Shown: positions 14,535 through 30,958 of the stretch, piece after piece
How positions within the stretch are numbered: the first letter of the stretch is position 1
How the letters are laid out: each line of letters opens with the position of its first letter
NCBI GenBank assembly: GCA_017795005.1
Contig: CP051242.1
Span: forward strand, 1,698,976-1,762,975
DNA length: 64,000 nucleotides
DNA from: Balneolaceae bacterium
Lineage (GTDB): Bacteria; Bacteroidota; Rhodothermia; Balneolales; Balneolaceae
Direction: 5' to 3'
The notes under the pieces: model-generated
Database searches by the model: none
What the model was told of the DNA's origin: nothing
Seen by the model: only the letters and a program-made list of their open reading frames with translations
Program-made: the position numbers and the translations under genes

Positions 14535-15860
14535 ATGATCGTATCAAAATTCGGGGGTACCAGTGTTGGAACGTTCGAAGCCATGCAACATAGCGCATCT
14601 ATAGTTGCTGAAAATCCGGATAGAAAATTAGTTGTTATCAGCGCTACAGCTGGAACAACAAATGATCTTGTTAGCCTGGAGAATCCTAATCTGGACTCCA
14701 CTTCCCGTGAAGCTATTTTACTGGAGATCGAAAACCGGCATCTTGGAATAATCAATCAGTGTGAAGATAAACAGGAGCTGGAGAAAACCTTCAGAGTTCA
14801 ACTCTCACAACTTCGAAACCATTTAGAACTTCCTGATCGGGATAAGAAATGGAAAGACACTTTGTATGCCTTCGGCGAACTGATGTCTACCAAAATATTT
14901 ACTGAAGTATTAAGAGAAAACGGGGTAGATGCTGAATGGCTGGATGCCAGAACTATTTTAAGAACAGATTCAGGATTTGGTAATGCCATTCCCGATATCA
15001 ACGCCACTAAAGTTCAGGCTAAGAAATTAATTTCCACAAAAAAGAGATATCTGACTCAGGGATTCATCGGAAGTGATGAGTTTGGAAGTACTACAACACT
15101 GGGTCGTGGCGGTAGTGATTATTCTGCTGCTTTATTCGCTGAAGCGACAAACGTGAGTATACTTGAAATCTGGACTGATGTAGCAGGGGTATATTCAACA
15201 GATCCCAGAATTGTATTGGAAGCTAAACCAATTTCAGAAATCACTTTTGATGAAGCGGCCGAGCTTTCAGTATTTGGAGGAAAAGTATTACATCCGGCAA
15301 CTTTGAAACCTGCAATTCGGGGGAAAGTGAAAGTAAGGGTAGCATCCAGTAAAAAACCCGAATTACCGGGAACCTTGATTGTACATCAAGCCAAAGACGA
15401 ACCTATTGTAAGAGCCATCTCTTTACGTAAAGATCAGACCCTGCTAACGGTGAGAAGTCTGGAGATGCTTCATCAACATGGTTTTCTGGCAAAATTATTC
15501 AGTGTTTTGGCAGACCATAAAATTTCCGTTGATCTGGTAACAACCAGTGAAGTTAGTGTATCATTAACGTTAGATACTGCGCATAAAGCTTCTAATAAAG
15601 TAGAACTAACAGATGATATTTTGAACGAACTCAGAGAATTTTGTGAAGTAGAAGTAGAAAAAGATTTGTCTCTGGTCGCTTTAATTGGAAATAAAATGGA
15701 CGCTACTTCAGGAATTAGCGGAACTCTGTTTGGTCTTTTGGAGAATCATAATATCCGGTTGGTGTGTCATGGAGCTTCTCCAAATAATGTATGCTTTCTG
15801 GTTAAAGAAGGAACCGGAGAAGAAATTGTACAATTGATACATAAGAAGTTTATTGGCTAG
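14535..15860 (+). CDS. lysC: aspartate kinase (monofunctional)
   Basis: Aspartokinase phosphorylates aspartate at the head of the lysine, threonine and methionine pathways. The N-terminal kinase domain starts with VSKFGGTSVG; GRGGSDYSAALFA and EIWTDVAGVYSTDPR are active-site segments. C-terminal ACT domains (about residues 300-440; FLAKLFSVLADHKISVDLVTTSEVSVSLT) normally bind lysine or threonine as feedback inhibitors. There is no homoserine dehydrogenase domain, and 441 aa is the usual monofunctional length. It is followed after 35 bases by dapB, dapA and dapD on the same strand, which suggests a dedicated lysine operon. Confidence 0.94.
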   Translation: MIVSKFGGTSVGTFEAMQHSASIVAENPDRKLVVISATAGTTNDLVSLENPNLDSTSREAILLEIENRHLGIINQCEDKQELEKTFRVQLSQLRNHLELPDRDKKWKDTLYAFGELMSTKIFTEVLRENGVDAEWLDARTILRTDSGFGNAIPDINATKVQAKKLISTKKRYLTQGFIGSDEFGSTTTLGRGGSDYSAALFAEATNVSILEIWTDVAGVYSTDPRIVLEAKPISEITFDEAAELSVFGGKVLHPATLKPAIRGKVKVRVASSKKPELPGTLIVHQAKDEPIVRAISLRKDQTLLTVRSLEMLHQHGFLAKLFSVLADHKISVDLVTTSEVSVSLTLDTAHKASNKVELTDDILNELREFCEVEVEKDLSLVALIGNKMDATSGISGTLFGLLENHNIRLVCHGASPNNVCFLVKEGTGEEIVQLIHKKFIG

Positions 15861-15895
15861 GAAGAAATTCAGGCTTTAAAATTCAAAATTATAAA

Positions 15896-16573
15896 ATGAG
15901 AATTTCAGTAATAGGAACGGGAAAAACAGGAAGTAAAGTAGTTGAATTACTAGGAGACAAACTGCTTCACTCTTTTGATGAAAATAACCCTGCTACCATA
16001 GAAAAATTAAAAGAATCAGATGCGATAATTATTTTTGTACCGGGAGACGCAGTGTCAGAAATTCTGGAAACAGTGCTGGAATCAGGAACTCCTTCAGCCT
16101 GGGGAAGTACCGGATTCCAATGGCCGGAAGATTTAGATGATAGAGTTAAATTTGCTAACACAAAATGGATTCTGGCTCATAATTTTAGTCTCGGAATGAA
16201 CATTATCCGTCATACCATCAAAAAAATCTCGGAAGGATCAACCATACTGGATAATCCTGAATTTAATATTCATGAAGTTCATCATATTCATAAGAAAGAT
16301 GCACCAAGTGGAACAGCCATCTCATGGAAAAAATGGCTTGGTAAGGAAGTTGAAATTACCTCGACAAGAGAAGGGGATGTAAATGGTATTCATGAATTAA
16401 CGCTTTCAACTGAACGGGAAAAAATTTCATTAAAACACGAAGCTCTGGATCGCTCTATCTTTGCAGAAGGAGCTATTTGGTGTGCAGAACAGTTAGTTAA
16501 TAATCTGATTTTAACGAACGGAGTTCATACTTTCGGAGAGTTGTTTGATCAAGTAATGAACGAAGACAAATAA
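15896..16573 (+). CDS. dapB: 4-hydroxy-tetrahydrodipicolinate reductase
   Basis: DapB reduces the DapA product with NAD(P)H in lysine and meso-diaminopimelate synthesis. The nucleotide-binding GTGKTGSKVVELL is at the start and the catalytic HEVHHIHKKDAPSGTA is at about residues 125-140. At 225 aa it is shorter than the E. coli enzyme (273 aa), with a trimmed N-terminal domain, but the catalytic loop is intact. The dapA ATG follows directly after its stop. Confidence 0.92.
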   Translation: MRISVIGTGKTGSKVVELLGDKLLHSFDENNPATIEKLKESDAIIIFVPGDAVSEILETVLESGTPSAWGSTGFQWPEDLDDRVKFANTKWILAHNFSLGMNIIRHTIKKISEGSTILDNPEFNIHEVHHIHKKDAPSGTAISWKKWLGKEVEITSTREGDVNGIHELTLSTEREKISLKHEALDRSIFAEGAIWCAEQLVNNLILTNGVHTFGELFDQVMNEDK

Positions 16574-17476
16574 ATGGAAAAGTACCCACTCTGGACTGCA
16601 ATAGTGACCCCTTTAAATAAAGAAGGGGGAATCGATTATAATAGCTTCGAATTTATTCTCAGAAAGCAGGAGGAAGCCGGGAATGGTGTATTAGTATTAG
16701 GAAGTACTGGTGAAGGGCTCAATCTTCTACCGGAAGAAAAGAGAGAAATCGTGAAGTTTGTTAAACTTCTGAAACTCAAAGTGCCAATCATGGCAGGACT
16801 TGGAGGATATCACATCAATGCCCAAATTGATTTTATCAATTACTGCGATGAAGCAGGAGTGGATGCCTTTCTGTTGGTTAATCCTATTTATGCGAAGCCC
16901 GGAAAAGAAGGTCAACTTGCCTGGTTTAGCGCATTAATGAAAGAAACTAAAACTCCTTGCATGATTTACAATGTGCCTTCCAGAACAGGGATACATATGC
17001 ATCCGGAAGTTCCTGCAACGCTTTCAAAAACATTCCCAAATTATATGGGGTTAAAAGAAGCGAGTGGAAGTATTGAGAAACTAAAAGAATTCATCAAAGC
17101 AGCTCCCAAAGCTCCTGTTTATTGCGGTGATGACAATTTGATTAATGAATTTATGGAAGAAGGAGCCATAGGTTTAGTCTCTGTTGCGTCTAATGCATGG
17201 CCAAAAAAGACACGAAAACAACTCGATTTATTTCTGGAAAGGAAAGCAGATCAAACTTTTAAGGAATGGGTTGAATGTGCAGATTTACTTTTTGATGCAC
17301 CCAGTCCAATTCCGGTAAAAACTTTGTTACAGCATAAAGGTTGGATTTCCTATGATCAGGTACGATTACCTCTTTCAGGGGACGATTTGAAACCTGAAAC
17401 AGAGGAAGCACTTCTGGAAGCAGATAGGAAAATTAATGCCTGGTACAAAGAAGTTACAAAGGCACAAAGGGACTAA
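16574..17476 (+). CDS. dapA: 4-hydroxy-tetrahydrodipicolinate synthase
   Basis: DapA condenses pyruvate with aspartate semialdehyde. This 300-aa TIM-barrel protein shows the LGSTGEGLNL substrate loop (residues 41-50), the catalytic tyrosine in MIYNVPSRTG, and the Schiff-base lysine in MGLKEASGS. Its start abuts the dapB stop. The last codons (about K-A-Q-R-D) and the stop codon lie inside an intergenic inverted repeat (17458-17526), so the C terminus of this protein has been rewritten by the repeat. Confidence 0.93.
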   Translation: MEKYPLWTAIVTPLNKEGGIDYNSFEFILRKQEEAGNGVLVLGSTGEGLNLLPEEKREIVKFVKLLKLKVPIMAGLGGYHINAQIDFINYCDEAGVDAFLLVNPIYAKPGKEGQLAWFSALMKETKTPCMIYNVPSRTGIHMHPEVPATLSKTFPNYMGLKEASGSIEKLKEFIKAAPKAPVYCGDDNLINEFMEEGAIGLVSVASNAWPKKTRKQLDLFLERKADQTFKEWVECADLLFDAPSPIPVKTLLQHKGWISYDQVRLPLSGDDLKPETEEALLEADRKINAWYKEVTKAQRD

Positions 17477-17526
17477 GGCACAAAGTATATTTATCAACCG
17501 GGCTCTGTGCCTCTGTGCCTTTGCCC
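17458..17526. repeat. inverted repeat of degenerate octamers at the dapA/dapD junction
   Basis: The left arm is made of GGCACAAA-like octamers (17458-17485); the right arm (17503-17526) has complementary CTCTGTGC-like octamers, so the RNA would fold into a long hairpin. The dapA stop lies in the left arm and the dapD ATG (17529) lies just past the right arm. A related octamer repeat is found at 26935-27009. Confidence 0.7.
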
Positions 17527-17528
17527 CT

Positions 17529-18290
17529 ATGAAACTCAACATGACACACGAAGAAATTTTAGATCAACTCGAAAATGGTGAGCTAAGAGCTGCTAATCTT
17601 ACCGAAGATGGAAACTGGGAAGCTAATGTAGAAGTGAAGAAAGCTATTCTGGAAGCGTTTAAAAATGGAACAAATGCTTCCTATGAAGGAGTGTATGATG
17701 GTTTTGTAGATAAGCATAATCTTCCGCCAAGATATTTTGAGCCTGAAGACGGAGTTCGTTTAGTACCCGGAGGATCTTCAGTTCGAAGAGGAGCATATGT
17801 GGCATCAGGGGTTATAATCATGCCTCCGGCATATATAAATATCGGTGCTTATGTTGATTCCGGTTCAATGGTTGATAGTCATGCACTGGTTGGTTCATGT
17901 GCTCAAATCGGAAAAAATGTTCATCTTTCCGCTGGAGTACAAATCGGTGGAGTGTTGGAACCAGTAGGTATGAGTCCTGTAATCATTGAAGATGATTGCT
18001 TTATTGGTGCCGGCGCTGTGATTGTAGAAGGAATACTTATTCGTAAAAGAGCCGTAATTGCACCTGGAGTTACTTTGTCCAAATCAATTCCTGTATTTGA
18101 TGCAGTTAATGAAGAAATTCGGGAACGAGGCTCAGAAATTCCGGAAGGTGCAGTTGTAATTCCCGGTACTCGTCCCATGAAAAGTGAATGGGCACAAAAA
18201 GAAGGGCTCAGTATGGCATGTCCAATTATTGTTAAATACAGAGATGCTAATTCAGACGCTTCTCTGGAATTGGAAGACGCACTGCGATGA
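17529..18290 (+). CDS. dapD: 2,3,4,5-tetrahydropyridine-2,6-dicarboxylate N-succinyltransferase
   Basis: DapD transfers succinyl from succinyl-CoA to tetrahydrodipicolinate, which places this organism's lysine route in the succinylase branch. The protein is a left-handed beta helix with hexapeptide repeats (GAYVASGVIIMPPAYINIGAY, GKNVHLSAGVQIGG, VIIEDDCFIGAGAVIVEG). I chose the ATG at 17529; the frame stays open upstream to 17436, but that part (cysteine-rich LCLCAFAP) is translated repeat DNA. ATG at 17541 is another option. The end overlaps the next gene by 4 bases (ATGA). Confidence 0.92.
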   Translation: MKLNMTHEEILDQLENGELRAANLTEDGNWEANVEVKKAILEAFKNGTNASYEGVYDGFVDKHNLPPRYFEPEDGVRLVPGGSSVRRGAYVASGVIIMPPAYINIGAYVDSGSMVDSHALVGSCAQIGKNVHLSAGVQIGGVLEPVGMSPVIIEDDCFIGAGAVIVEGILIRKRAVIAPGVTLSKSIPVFDAVNEEIRERGSEIPEGAVVIPGTRPMKSEWAQKEGLSMACPIIVKYRDANSDASLELEDALR

Positions 18291-25141: not shown

Positions 25142-26848
25142 TTAATGTACAAGCGCTTTATTCGCAACCGCCAATCCTTTTACGAAAGCCTGGATAAGTG
25201 CTTCTAAGGTATCCGGAGAAGCTGCTTTGGTTGTAAAAGAATAATCCTCTTTTTCCAAAGTTAGGGTAACAATTACCAATGAATCGGTATCCGGACTTAG
25301 AATTTCCACTTCATGGTTTTTTACCTCCAACGGAATAAACGCATCTGTTTCAGCTTTAATGGCTGTTAATACGGCATCCATCGGCCCAACTCCCTGATCC
25401 AGCGAAATCACTTCTTCACCATTTGGGAGTTTCAATTTAACAGCAGCACTAACAAGCCCATGCATTCGCATGGTAAGTTTGTAATCCAGTACTTCAACGG
25501 GATGAGTCAGATCAAGGTCTTCGTTATAAACCAGAGATTTTAGTGCTTTAATTTCTTCTTCCCTGAGTGTTTTACCTTTTCTGTTGATGCCACTAACATA
25601 TTCATCATATAAACGGGTGTGTTCCTCATCCATGGAAACATTTCCCATCATCATTTCTCTGGATTGCCCCCAGCTTTTTTTCTGTAAATCGGGGAACCCG
25701 GATTCAATGTATTGTTGCACTCGTTCCAGCTTTGGGGAAAGAACAGGAGAGGAGAGAGAGTATTTGGAAACAATTTGAGAGCTTTTTAATCCTGTTCCGG
25801 TTAACACAAACAGACATTTCTTTCCTTTAAACTGATCCTCATTATTTTTGAAACAGGCTAAAGGAATGGCACAGGAAGGCTCTGTAAATAATCCTTCTTC
25901 TACGGTCATCTCTTTCATTGACTCGAGTAACTCATTCTCAGTTGCAGTGAATGCAAGTCCATCGGTTTCCTGAATTCCTTCCATCACTTTGTAGAAATCA
26001 AACGGGTCTCCTACAGCTACGGCGTCTGCCATGGTATGTACCTGATCGGCGATCACTTTTTCTTTTTTGAAGATGCCTTCGACAACCGGAGAGCTTTGTT
26101 CGGGTTGAACTGCTACAAAAGCCGGAATCTTTTCAATTTGTCCGGCCGCCTTTAATTCTTTCAATCCTTTAAAAATAGCAGCGAAGTTAGTACCGGCTCC
26201 AACAGGTACAAATATGTAATCATAATCCATTGGGCCTTGTTCAAATAACTCATAGGAAAATGATTTCTGTCCTTCCTGACGGAATACATAGTCGCCGGCT
26301 AAATAGTAGTTCCCTGATTTCGCAAACTGTCTGCATAATATTTCACATTGTTTGAAATCGCCTTTTATTTTGATGATAGTCGCGTCATAAATAGTAGACT
26401 GAGCAAGTTTTACTTCAGGAGTTTTTTCCGGGACAAATACAAAACACGGAATTTTGAAATAGCAGGCATAGGCCGCTACTGATGCTGCCATGTTACCGGT
26501 AGACGCCAGACAAATAGCGTCTGCACCGAGTTCAATTGCTTTTAGTACTTCGATATAACTGCCCCTGTCTTTGAAACATCCGGTTGGGTTTTCAAACTCG
26601 AGTTTAGCGTATAAATCGGCACCATATTTTTCAGACAACCGTGTAAGTGAACGTAGAGCGGTATAATGATTCTTTAATGGATCAGGCTGAATGTCTTTCA
26701 GTGGATACTGAATCTCCGGTCGGATTTCCTTGTACTCTACAGTAAGCACACTTCCACAACTTGTGCAATAGGTGGAAGTTTCGCGTTCATCATTAATGTG
26801 ATTACAGGTAATACAACGTACCTTGTAGCCGGAATTGGAGCTTTTCAT
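25142..26848 (-). CDS. threonine synthase-like PLP enzyme fused to a LeuA-type allosteric domain
   Basis: The protein has three parts. A zinc ribbon (Cys12, 15, 28, 31) precedes a fold-type II PLP enzyme (about residues 55-385) with the Schiff-base lysine K93 in ENPTGCFKDRGS, LASTGNMAASVAAYA for phosphate and PVGAGTNFAA. Threonine synthase converts O-phosphohomoserine to threonine. The last 170 residues (about 400-568) look like the 2-isopropylmalate synthase regulatory domain: KTLREEEIKALKSLV, then VSAAVKLKLPNGEE, GVGPMDAVLTAIKAE and a final DTLEALIQAFVKGLAVANKA. In LeuA this domain binds leucine. A feedback-controlled threonine synthase is my inference. Confidence 0.82.
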   Translation of the reverse strand: MKSSNSGYKVRCITCNHINDERETSTYCTSCGSVLTVEYKEIRPEIQYPLKDIQPDPLKNHYTALRSLTRLSEKYGADLYAKLEFENPTGCFKDRGSYIEVLKAIELGADAICLASTGNMAASVAAYACYFKIPCFVFVPEKTPEVKLAQSTIYDATIIKIKGDFKQCEILCRQFAKSGNYYLAGDYVFRQEGQKSFSYELFEQGPMDYDYIFVPVGAGTNFAAIFKGLKELKAAGQIEKIPAFVAVQPEQSSPVVEGIFKKEKVIADQVHTMADAVAVGDPFDFYKVMEGIQETDGLAFTATENELLESMKEMTVEEGLFTEPSCAIPLACFKNNEDQFKGKKCLFVLTGTGLKSSQIVSKYSLSSPVLSPKLERVQQYIESGFPDLQKKSWGQSREMMMGNVSMDEEHTRLYDEYVSGINRKGKTLREEEIKALKSLVYNEDLDLTHPVEVLDYKLTMRMHGLVSAAVKLKLPNGEEVISLDQGVGPMDAVLTAIKAETDAFIPLEVKNHEVEILSPDTDSLVIVTLTLEKEDYSFTTKAASPDTLEALIQAFVKGLAVANKALVH

Positions 26849-30025: not shown

Positions 30026-30958
30026 TTAGAGTTGATTTAATTTGAGTGCTAACTTATTTATAATTTTTATTACTAAATCATTTAAATTCATAATCTCCCC
30101 AATCAACTCCTCCCTAACCGGCTTCCCTTTTTCAAAAATAGCTTCCTGATGTTGTAGATATTCGAGTCGGCCTTCTTCGGTTTCAATTTTAATGGGTTCC
30201 AGTCCGTGTTCCTGTAAATCGTAAGGACTTGCCATCATATCTATAGTGCGAGCTTCACAAGCGAGTTCAAAAGCCTCCAGAATCAGATCACTGCCAATCC
30301 AAGGGTATAGCTTATGCGCCCATTTGTATAAGTCCATATTGGAATGAATACAGCCCGGCTGCTCGGTATTCGCAAAATCTTGTCTGGAAAGCTCAAACTT
30401 ATTCATAGGAACAGCCTCGGGAGTAAAGAAACGGTAGGCATCAAAATGAGTACACACCAGTGGGCGACTTTCCACAAACTCCGCCAGCTCTTCGGGCTCC
30501 ATACGTAAGGGAACCTGGTCATGACGAGGTTTCTCCGCTTTATACACCATCGCCCATTCGTGCATCCCAAAGCATCCGAACATGGGTTTTTTGTCCCTCG
30601 TGTTTTGCAACATTTCCAATATCCACCGGGTGGATTTAATCCTTTTTTCAGGAAAAAGTGTGGGGTCCAGAAAGGCGATACTATCCTCAATCACCAACTC
30701 GCTTAGCTCTGGAAGTTCAGAAGGTTCAGAAACTTCCAGTCCGATTCCTATTCCGGGCGACCATCTTCTGAGAGCTGAAGGTCGGAAGGCGTAATATTCA
30801 AACAGAAAATCCATGACTGGCTGCTTTTTATGCGCAGACCGGGCTTTCAGATAATCGCCAATCAACTCATCCACACGGTGCTCGTGGGCTTTTTTCCGGG
30901 CAATCCATTCTTCTTCGGAGAGAACTTTTGTCAGCGATATTTGGGATGGGGTTATCAT
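30026..30958 (-). CDS. conserved protein of the family annotated as 3-methyladenine DNA glycosylase
   Basis: A 310-aa soluble protein with the signature of a family found in Actinobacteria and others and often labelled 3-methyladenine DNA glycosylase: an N-terminal EWIARKKAHEHRVDELIGDYLKAR, PVMDFLFEYYAFRPSALRRWSPG, FGCFGMHEWAMVY, LVCTHFDAYRFFTPEA and QPGCIHSNMDLYKWAHKLYPW. Conserved His and Cys residues are plentiful. I know of no experimental proof of glycosylase activity, so treat the name as tentative. The gene's 3' end lies near the AT-rich pair, and its 5' flank holds REP-like hairpins. Confidence 0.65.
   Translation of the reverse strand: MITPSQISLTKVLSEEEWIARKKAHEHRVDELIGDYLKARSAHKKQPVMDFLFEYYAFRPSALRRWSPGIGIGLEVSEPSELPELSELVIEDSIAFLDPTLFPEKRIKSTRWILEMLQNTRDKKPMFGCFGMHEWAMVYKAEKPRHDQVPLRMEPEELAEFVESRPLVCTHFDAYRFFTPEAVPMNKFELSRQDFANTEQPGCIHSNMDLYKWAHKLYPWIGSDLILEAFELACEARTIDMMASPYDLQEHGLEPIKIETEEGRLEYLQHQEAIFEKGKPVREELIGEIMNLNDLVIKIINKLALKLNQL

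Follow-up and report, generated by a model that had tools for sequence, protein, structure and literature searches.

A threonine-synthase-like PLP enzyme joined to a LeuA/CimA-type domain in the order Balneolales

A conserved domain fusion

Why should a PLP enzyme that resembles threonine synthase carry the amino acid sensor domain that usually sits on a different synthase? The question is raised by a gene at positions 25142 to 26848 of the window (the whole stretch of 64,000 nucleotides analyzed here, from a Balneolaceae bacterium). It is a single uninterrupted ORF on the minus strand that codes for 568 amino acids from an ATG, and the MKSSNSGY start is common to close relatives. The sequence-only reading had described one gene joining a PLP enzyme to a LeuA-type domain, which our analysis bears out, adding the strand that had been left unstated. 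From the N terminus, the protein comprises a zinc-ribbon-like segment (residues 8 to 39; 26732 to 26827, minus strand; Zn_Ribbon_TF below its cut-off), a PALP (fold-type II PLP) catalytic domain with the PLP lysine at K93 (residues 62 to 351; 25796 to 26665, minus strand; E 6.9e-62), a linker predicted to be helical (residues 384 to 434; 25547 to 25699, minus strand) and a LeuA_dimer (LeuA/CimA regulatory) domain (PF08502; residues 435 to 559; 25172 to 25546, minus strand). Its sequence score of 57 bits (E 2.5e-15), with the Pfam gathering cut-off at 24.9, puts this last match well outside what chance would give. Residues 403 to 561, which include part of the linker (403 to 434), also resemble the C-terminal part of 2-isopropylmalate synthase at a sub-threshold NCBIfam score. 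In the Pfam searches, neither the HMGL-like catalytic domain (PF00682, at E ≤ 1) nor an ACT domain was found in the protein. Both PALP and LeuA_dimer were present in all 24 relatives scanned (alignment A1, from which L050 was omitted as a repeat of L003; E ≤ 0.001), and the joining of the two domains is real and conserved. Residue conservation is given below for 29 fusion rows, which include two repeated genes (L003/L050 and L004/L120) and thus represent 27 different genes.

The fusion is confined to Balneolales at both scales that were screened. With the A1 profile (E ≤ 1e-80), it was found in 53 of the 244 genomes of the class, all of them among the 128 genomes of this order, with three copies cut by contig ends (G037, G077 and G122). 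In a 394-genome sample of the phylum, full-length matches again occurred only in Balneolales, and eight other genomes matched the PALP part only. The named relatives are Balneolaceae/Aliifodinibius MAGs. Among 72,556 plasmid records, 461 matched and none covered 80% of the query, and a literature search for a fusion of PALP and LeuA_dimer found nothing on such a protein. Two genomes (G105 and G106) have C-terminal fragments of a weaker LeuA_dimer kind, which are outside the 53 and were counted as fusion negative in the pathway tests described below. In one fusion copy (G012:C1:1782669-1784360), the match is listed as containing one TAG. Between the copies of genomes G019 and G020, dN/dS was 0.011 overall, 0.015 for the PALP part and 0.007 for the C-terminal part, at a dS of 1.35 that is near saturation. 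Homoserine kinase, KARI and an HMGL-like synthase all go undetected in these two genomes, and the fusion is there under strong purifying selection.

Amino acid pathways in the host genome and across the order

The genome that contains the window is a single contig of 3.75 Mb, 99.5% complete, and the fusion is its only LeuA_dimer protein. It has seven PALP genes, including a thrC located beside thrA and thrB and an ilvA whose product is of the THD1 type, with an ACT-type C-terminal domain. The genes ilvBN, ilvC, ilvD, leuCDB and a leuA of 387 amino acids are also present. With thrABC, ilvA and the ilv/leu set all in place, the fusion is an additional enzyme and not the sole candidate for the threonine supply step. 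The LeuA gene of this genome (L098:7489-8652, C1, about 11 kb before the start of the window) is followed immediately by leuC. Its product stops at the point where a regulatory domain would start and matches only positions 1 to 381 of the 494 of TIGR00973, so leucine feedback on it must be absent or different.

Three pathway markers were scored across the genomes, i.e., KARI, an HMGL-like (LeuA/CimA-type) synthase and the homoserine kinase thrB, the latter with the GHMP-type model only. All three occur together in 33 of the 53 fusion genomes, and none could be detected in 13, eight of which are at least 95% complete. Of the remainder, five have only thrB, one lacks only thrB and one lacks only the HMGL-like synthase. 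Counted by pathway, KARI and the HMGL-like synthase are both missing from 18 of the 53, and homoserine kinase is undetected by its GHMP-type model in 14 (it is present in the host genome). On the other side, 41 genomes without the fusion have all three markers. Over the 128 genomes, the fusion was associated neither with KARI (Fisher p 0.85) nor with thrB (p 1.0), in a test that ignores genome relatedness, and the KARI value led us to discard a link between the occurrence of the fusion and the making of branched-chain amino acids. Homoserine dehydrogenase is kept in all the fusion genomes but G089 and G090 (both small, 89 to 90% complete), and this enzyme could serve methionine. A literature search on auxotrophy in Balneolaceae matched only work on a haloarchaeon.

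Other proteins of these families were seen along the way. Four of the thrB-less genomes (G008, G031, G035 and G038) hold another ThrC-like gene of ca. 400 amino acids. In the first three, the products (L110, L111 and L112) are threonine-synthase-like proteins of 395 to 401 amino acids, L110, the one scanned, being of the PRK08197 type (510 bits), and their threonine synthase label looks doubtful too. Related genomes also have a set of strong LeuA_dimer proteins (L013 to L042) that includes citramalate synthase, an identity taken from the one protein scanned (L013; TIGR00977, 787 bits); its presence suggests that those genera make isoleucine by way of pyruvate.

A catalytic domain altered on its substrate side

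The N-terminal two thirds had been described from the sequence as a standard PLP threonine synthase, and part of that description stands. K93, within GCFKDRGS, is kept in 29/29 fusion rows, as are N119 and T350, so that the PLP lysine and the Asn and Thr that contact the ring are all there. “Standard,” however, is not borne out. Against the thrC model TIGR00260 the protein scores 163.5, just under the NCBIfam cut-off of 167.1 (some relatives are above it), all its NCBIfam threonine synthase matches are sub-threshold, and its best sequence matches among solved structures, while being threonine synthases, span residues 58 to 381 only. The zinc ribbon is partly variable. Only C12, C28 and C31 are invariant, and position 15 varies (16 rows with C, 12 with N and 1 with H, out of 29); the fourth ligand would be C15 or possibly H17.

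Further differences are found on the substrate side. We compared the fusion rows with four solved type I threonine synthases (ThrS), namely 6cgq (B. subtilis), 1uim (Thermus), 2d1f (M. tuberculosis) and 2zsj (Aquifex). Shared by all are the PALP fold, the PLP lysine in FKDRG and the equivalents of N87, T317 and R160 (Thermus numbering throughout), the last being R190 of the fusion, kept in 29/29 rows. In contrast, every fusion row differs at positions that are constant in the four solved ThrS: it has C for S59, S for M65, M for T88 and A or C for N188, and the pair N154-S155 gives way to G-D, close to a deletion of one residue. These positions presumably have a substrate-binding role, T88 and the N154-S155 pair being, we assume, contacts of the substrate phosphate. 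The fusion differs further in its extra C-terminal domain and in its placement in a tree of 32 rows, where ten fusion representatives form a clade of their own and the four solved ThrS another (100/100 each). The tree groups them with threonine-synthase-type proteins and not with the IlvA of the same genome, and leaves the branch order among groups unsettled. An unfused paralogue of 401 to 410 amino acids, found in two f5 genomes (L113 and L114, in G116 and G117), has the unusual TGNM and FKDRGS motifs of the fusion, with M120 and S97 as in the latter; it was considered as close kin and rejected, as it falls outside the fusion group in the tree.

Could the fusion still be a working threonine synthase isozyme, with a LeuA-type domain through which the supply of threonine is inhibited by isoleucine or leucine? 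The nearest sequences are indeed type I threonine synthases, the four residues K93, N119, T350 and R190 are kept, and homoserine kinase, KARI and HMGL-like synthase occur together in 33 of the 53 fusion genomes. Nevertheless, we consider it unlikely, given that a separate canonical thrC already sits in the thrABC operon, that thrB is undetected in more than a quarter of the fusion genomes (and homoserine dehydrogenase, too, in the two small ones), that the NS pair and T88 are replaced in every row and that the link to KARI is absent. The sequence-only reading had gone in this direction, proposing that a branched-chain amino acid feeds back on the supply of threonine, from which isoleucine is made. 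Our comparison gives this proposal no support: the host genome has its own thrA-thrB-thrC operon and an ACT-type IlvA, neither association test gave a signal, the fusion persists where homoserine kinase or the branched-chain markers go undetected, and its substrate pocket differs from that of the solved ThrS. Both the threonine synthase label and the logic of isoleucine feedback are thus doubtful for this protein.

Equally improbable in our estimate is an enzyme resembling threonine/serine dehydratase, with the LeuA-type domain taking the place of the ACT-like domain of IlvA and putting 2-oxobutyrate under branched-chain control. The likeness is one of principle, since IlvA also joins a PALP enzyme to a C-terminal amino acid sensor; the sensor fold of the fusion is LeuA-type and its catalytic domain ThrS-type. 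A PALP pocket stripped of the substrate-side residues of ThrS and attached to a branched-chain sensor domain would suit a dehydratase. On the other hand, the IlvA model NF006390 gives 102 against a cut-off of 421, all the dehydratase cut-offs are far above the scores of the fusion, the host genome already has an IlvA with its C-terminal domain, and the tree puts the fusion elsewhere, as described above. It would be, in any case, a special case of the explanation that we prefer, an enzyme of threonine-synthase descent gated by a branched-chain amino acid.

The C-terminal domain

That the last ca. 170 residues correspond to the LeuA/CimA regulatory domain had been read from the sequence and is now upheld by several comparisons besides the PF08502 match. 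Aligned by hhalign, 20 fusion C termini (A3) matched ten citramalate synthase-like C termini of the same order (A4) with a probability of 96.1 (E 3.2e-9, 110 columns). The A3 profile also retrieved 3f6g first from the PDB (E 0.0049), a single-sequence phmmer search of the fusion C terminus against the PDB giving no match. For the last 199 residues, AlphaFold2 gave a model of modest confidence (mean pLDDT 59.8, higher toward the C-terminal third); one of the whole protein, built with five sequences, was discarded (mean pLDDT 38.9). The sequence-only reading would have been refuted by the lack of a significant structural match of residues 400 to 568 to the LeuA regulatory fold, and it was not: with the C-terminal model as query, Foldseek placed first the regulatory domain of Leptospira citramalate synthase (LiCMS; 3f6h/3f6g) in its isoleucine-bound form, with a probability of 1.00 and E values of 3.1e-3 to 3e-2, followed by M. 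tuberculosis LeuA. By VIA-align 2, the LiCMS domain reached Z 9.0 over 95 residues at 24% identity, but unrelated ribosome hibernation factors scored above it (Z 10.1) and double-stranded RNA binding domains came close behind, so the fold alone is not specific and the case rests on sequence and Foldseek. For this domain, the closest known systems are the regulatory domains of LiCMS, the best match in both, and of M. tuberculosis LeuA (1sr9 and 3fig). In these the domain sits on an HMGL-type synthase, whereas here it sits on a PLP enzyme.

The isoleucine contacts of LiCMS, which we take to be Y430, L451, Y454, I458, V468, P493 and Q495, map in order to M490, V509, H512, I516, V525, P545 and T547 of the fusion in the 3f6g alignment. 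The side chains at the mapped positions are mostly hydrophobic, with H512 and T547 differing from the presumed Y454 and Q495. A branched-chain effector appears plausible, to judge from this mapping and from the isoleucine-bound state of the nearest structure. GVGP (486 to 489), H512, LSP (517 to 519), S544 and D546 are invariant in 29/29 rows, and none of 20,000 random sets of positions drawn from the domain is as conserved as the 16 positions of pocket plus loop; for the seven mapped pocket positions alone, conservation is not significantly above random (p 0.11). Literature searches on LeuA/CimA pockets and threonine synthase active sites found no residue lists, and the portions of PMC11057210 and PMC10464499 reached by a term search gave no pocket residues.

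A less probable alternative than either of those above is that the domain is a dimerization module only and binds no effector. PF08502 is named as an allosteric (dimerization) domain, and the LiCMS pocket is only partly matched, with H512 and T547 where we assume Y454 and Q495. Such a module would hardly call for the invariant loop residues and H512, or for mostly hydrophobic side chains at the mapped positions. Finally, the domain might act in trans on the host LeuA, which is short of a regulatory domain in a genome where the fusion has the only LeuA_dimer, but this is very improbable, with 18 of the 53 fusion genomes having neither KARI nor an HMGL-like synthase and 41 fusion-less genomes having these and thrB.

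An enzyme gated by branched-chain amino acids?

The explanation that we favor, with a probability of roughly 45%, is that the fusion is a PLP enzyme of threonine-synthase descent, forming its own clade, that acts on an unphosphorylated amino acid and is gated by a branched-chain amino acid through the LeuA/CimA-type domain. A fold-type II PLP enzyme of the threonine synthase family would have been joined to the effector-binding and dimerization domain of LeuA/CimA. O-phosphohomoserine would no longer be its substrate, an unphosphorylated amino acid being used instead, and the reaction would most likely be of the deaminase/lyase type. The activity may be switched by a branched-chain amino acid (isoleucine or leucine) that binds at the interface of the C-terminal dimer. 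That amino acid would report the cellular or imported supply of amino acids and would not stand at the end of the enzyme's own pathway. The PLP contacts kept next to replaced substrate-side residues, the thrABC, ilvA and ilv-leu genes of the host and the persistence in marker-less genomes all speak for this explanation, as does a genus in which some genomes have thrABC tail-to-tail with the fusion and their sisters have the fusion in position but no thrABC. Against it, the closest characterized enzymes are threonine synthases, some relatives score above the TIGR00260 cut-off, R160 is kept as R190 and the seven pocket positions taken alone show no significant conservation.

More tentatively, and with less confidence than in the gating itself, we suggest a previously undescribed enzyme of Balneolales, neofunctionalized from threonine synthase, whose captured LeuA-type domain reads the availability of branched-chain amino acids as a nutrient signal, including in lineages unable to make them. 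The sensor domain, placed on a PLP enzyme instead of the usual synthase, is subject to strong selection even in bacteria seemingly devoid of both pathways it would be expected to serve. If gating by branched-chain amino acids is true, this would be a simple case of their use as a supply signal at the protein level. In any event, caution is needed before annotating this group of fusions as threonine synthase.

Gene neighborhood

In the window, a lysC-dapB-dapA-dapD operon (14535 to 18290, plus strand) is convergent with the fusion and about 7 kb away. In 13 of the 25 loci examined (one pair being the same gene twice), dapD and/or dapA are near and convergent. Six genomes of genus g3 (G009, G012, G014, G015, G017 and G018) have a thrC match tail-to-tail with the fusion, within ca. 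210 bases of it, and in G009 the order after thrABC goes on to dapD and dapA. Three other g3 genomes, G013, G019 and G020, lack thrB, and in them dapD comes after the fusion with no thrABC in between. Within g3, thrABC may have been lost from these three or gained by the others. The frequent proximity to thrABC or lysC-dapBAD could mean an aspartate-family substrate, which counts against the gated enzyme that we favor. Operon logic gave no substrate, the neighbors being mostly unrelated genes or these convergent clusters. Among the neighbors, a protein of 310 amino acids with no Pfam or NCBIfam match (30029 to 30958 of the window, minus strand) is found near the fusion in 16 of the 25 loci.
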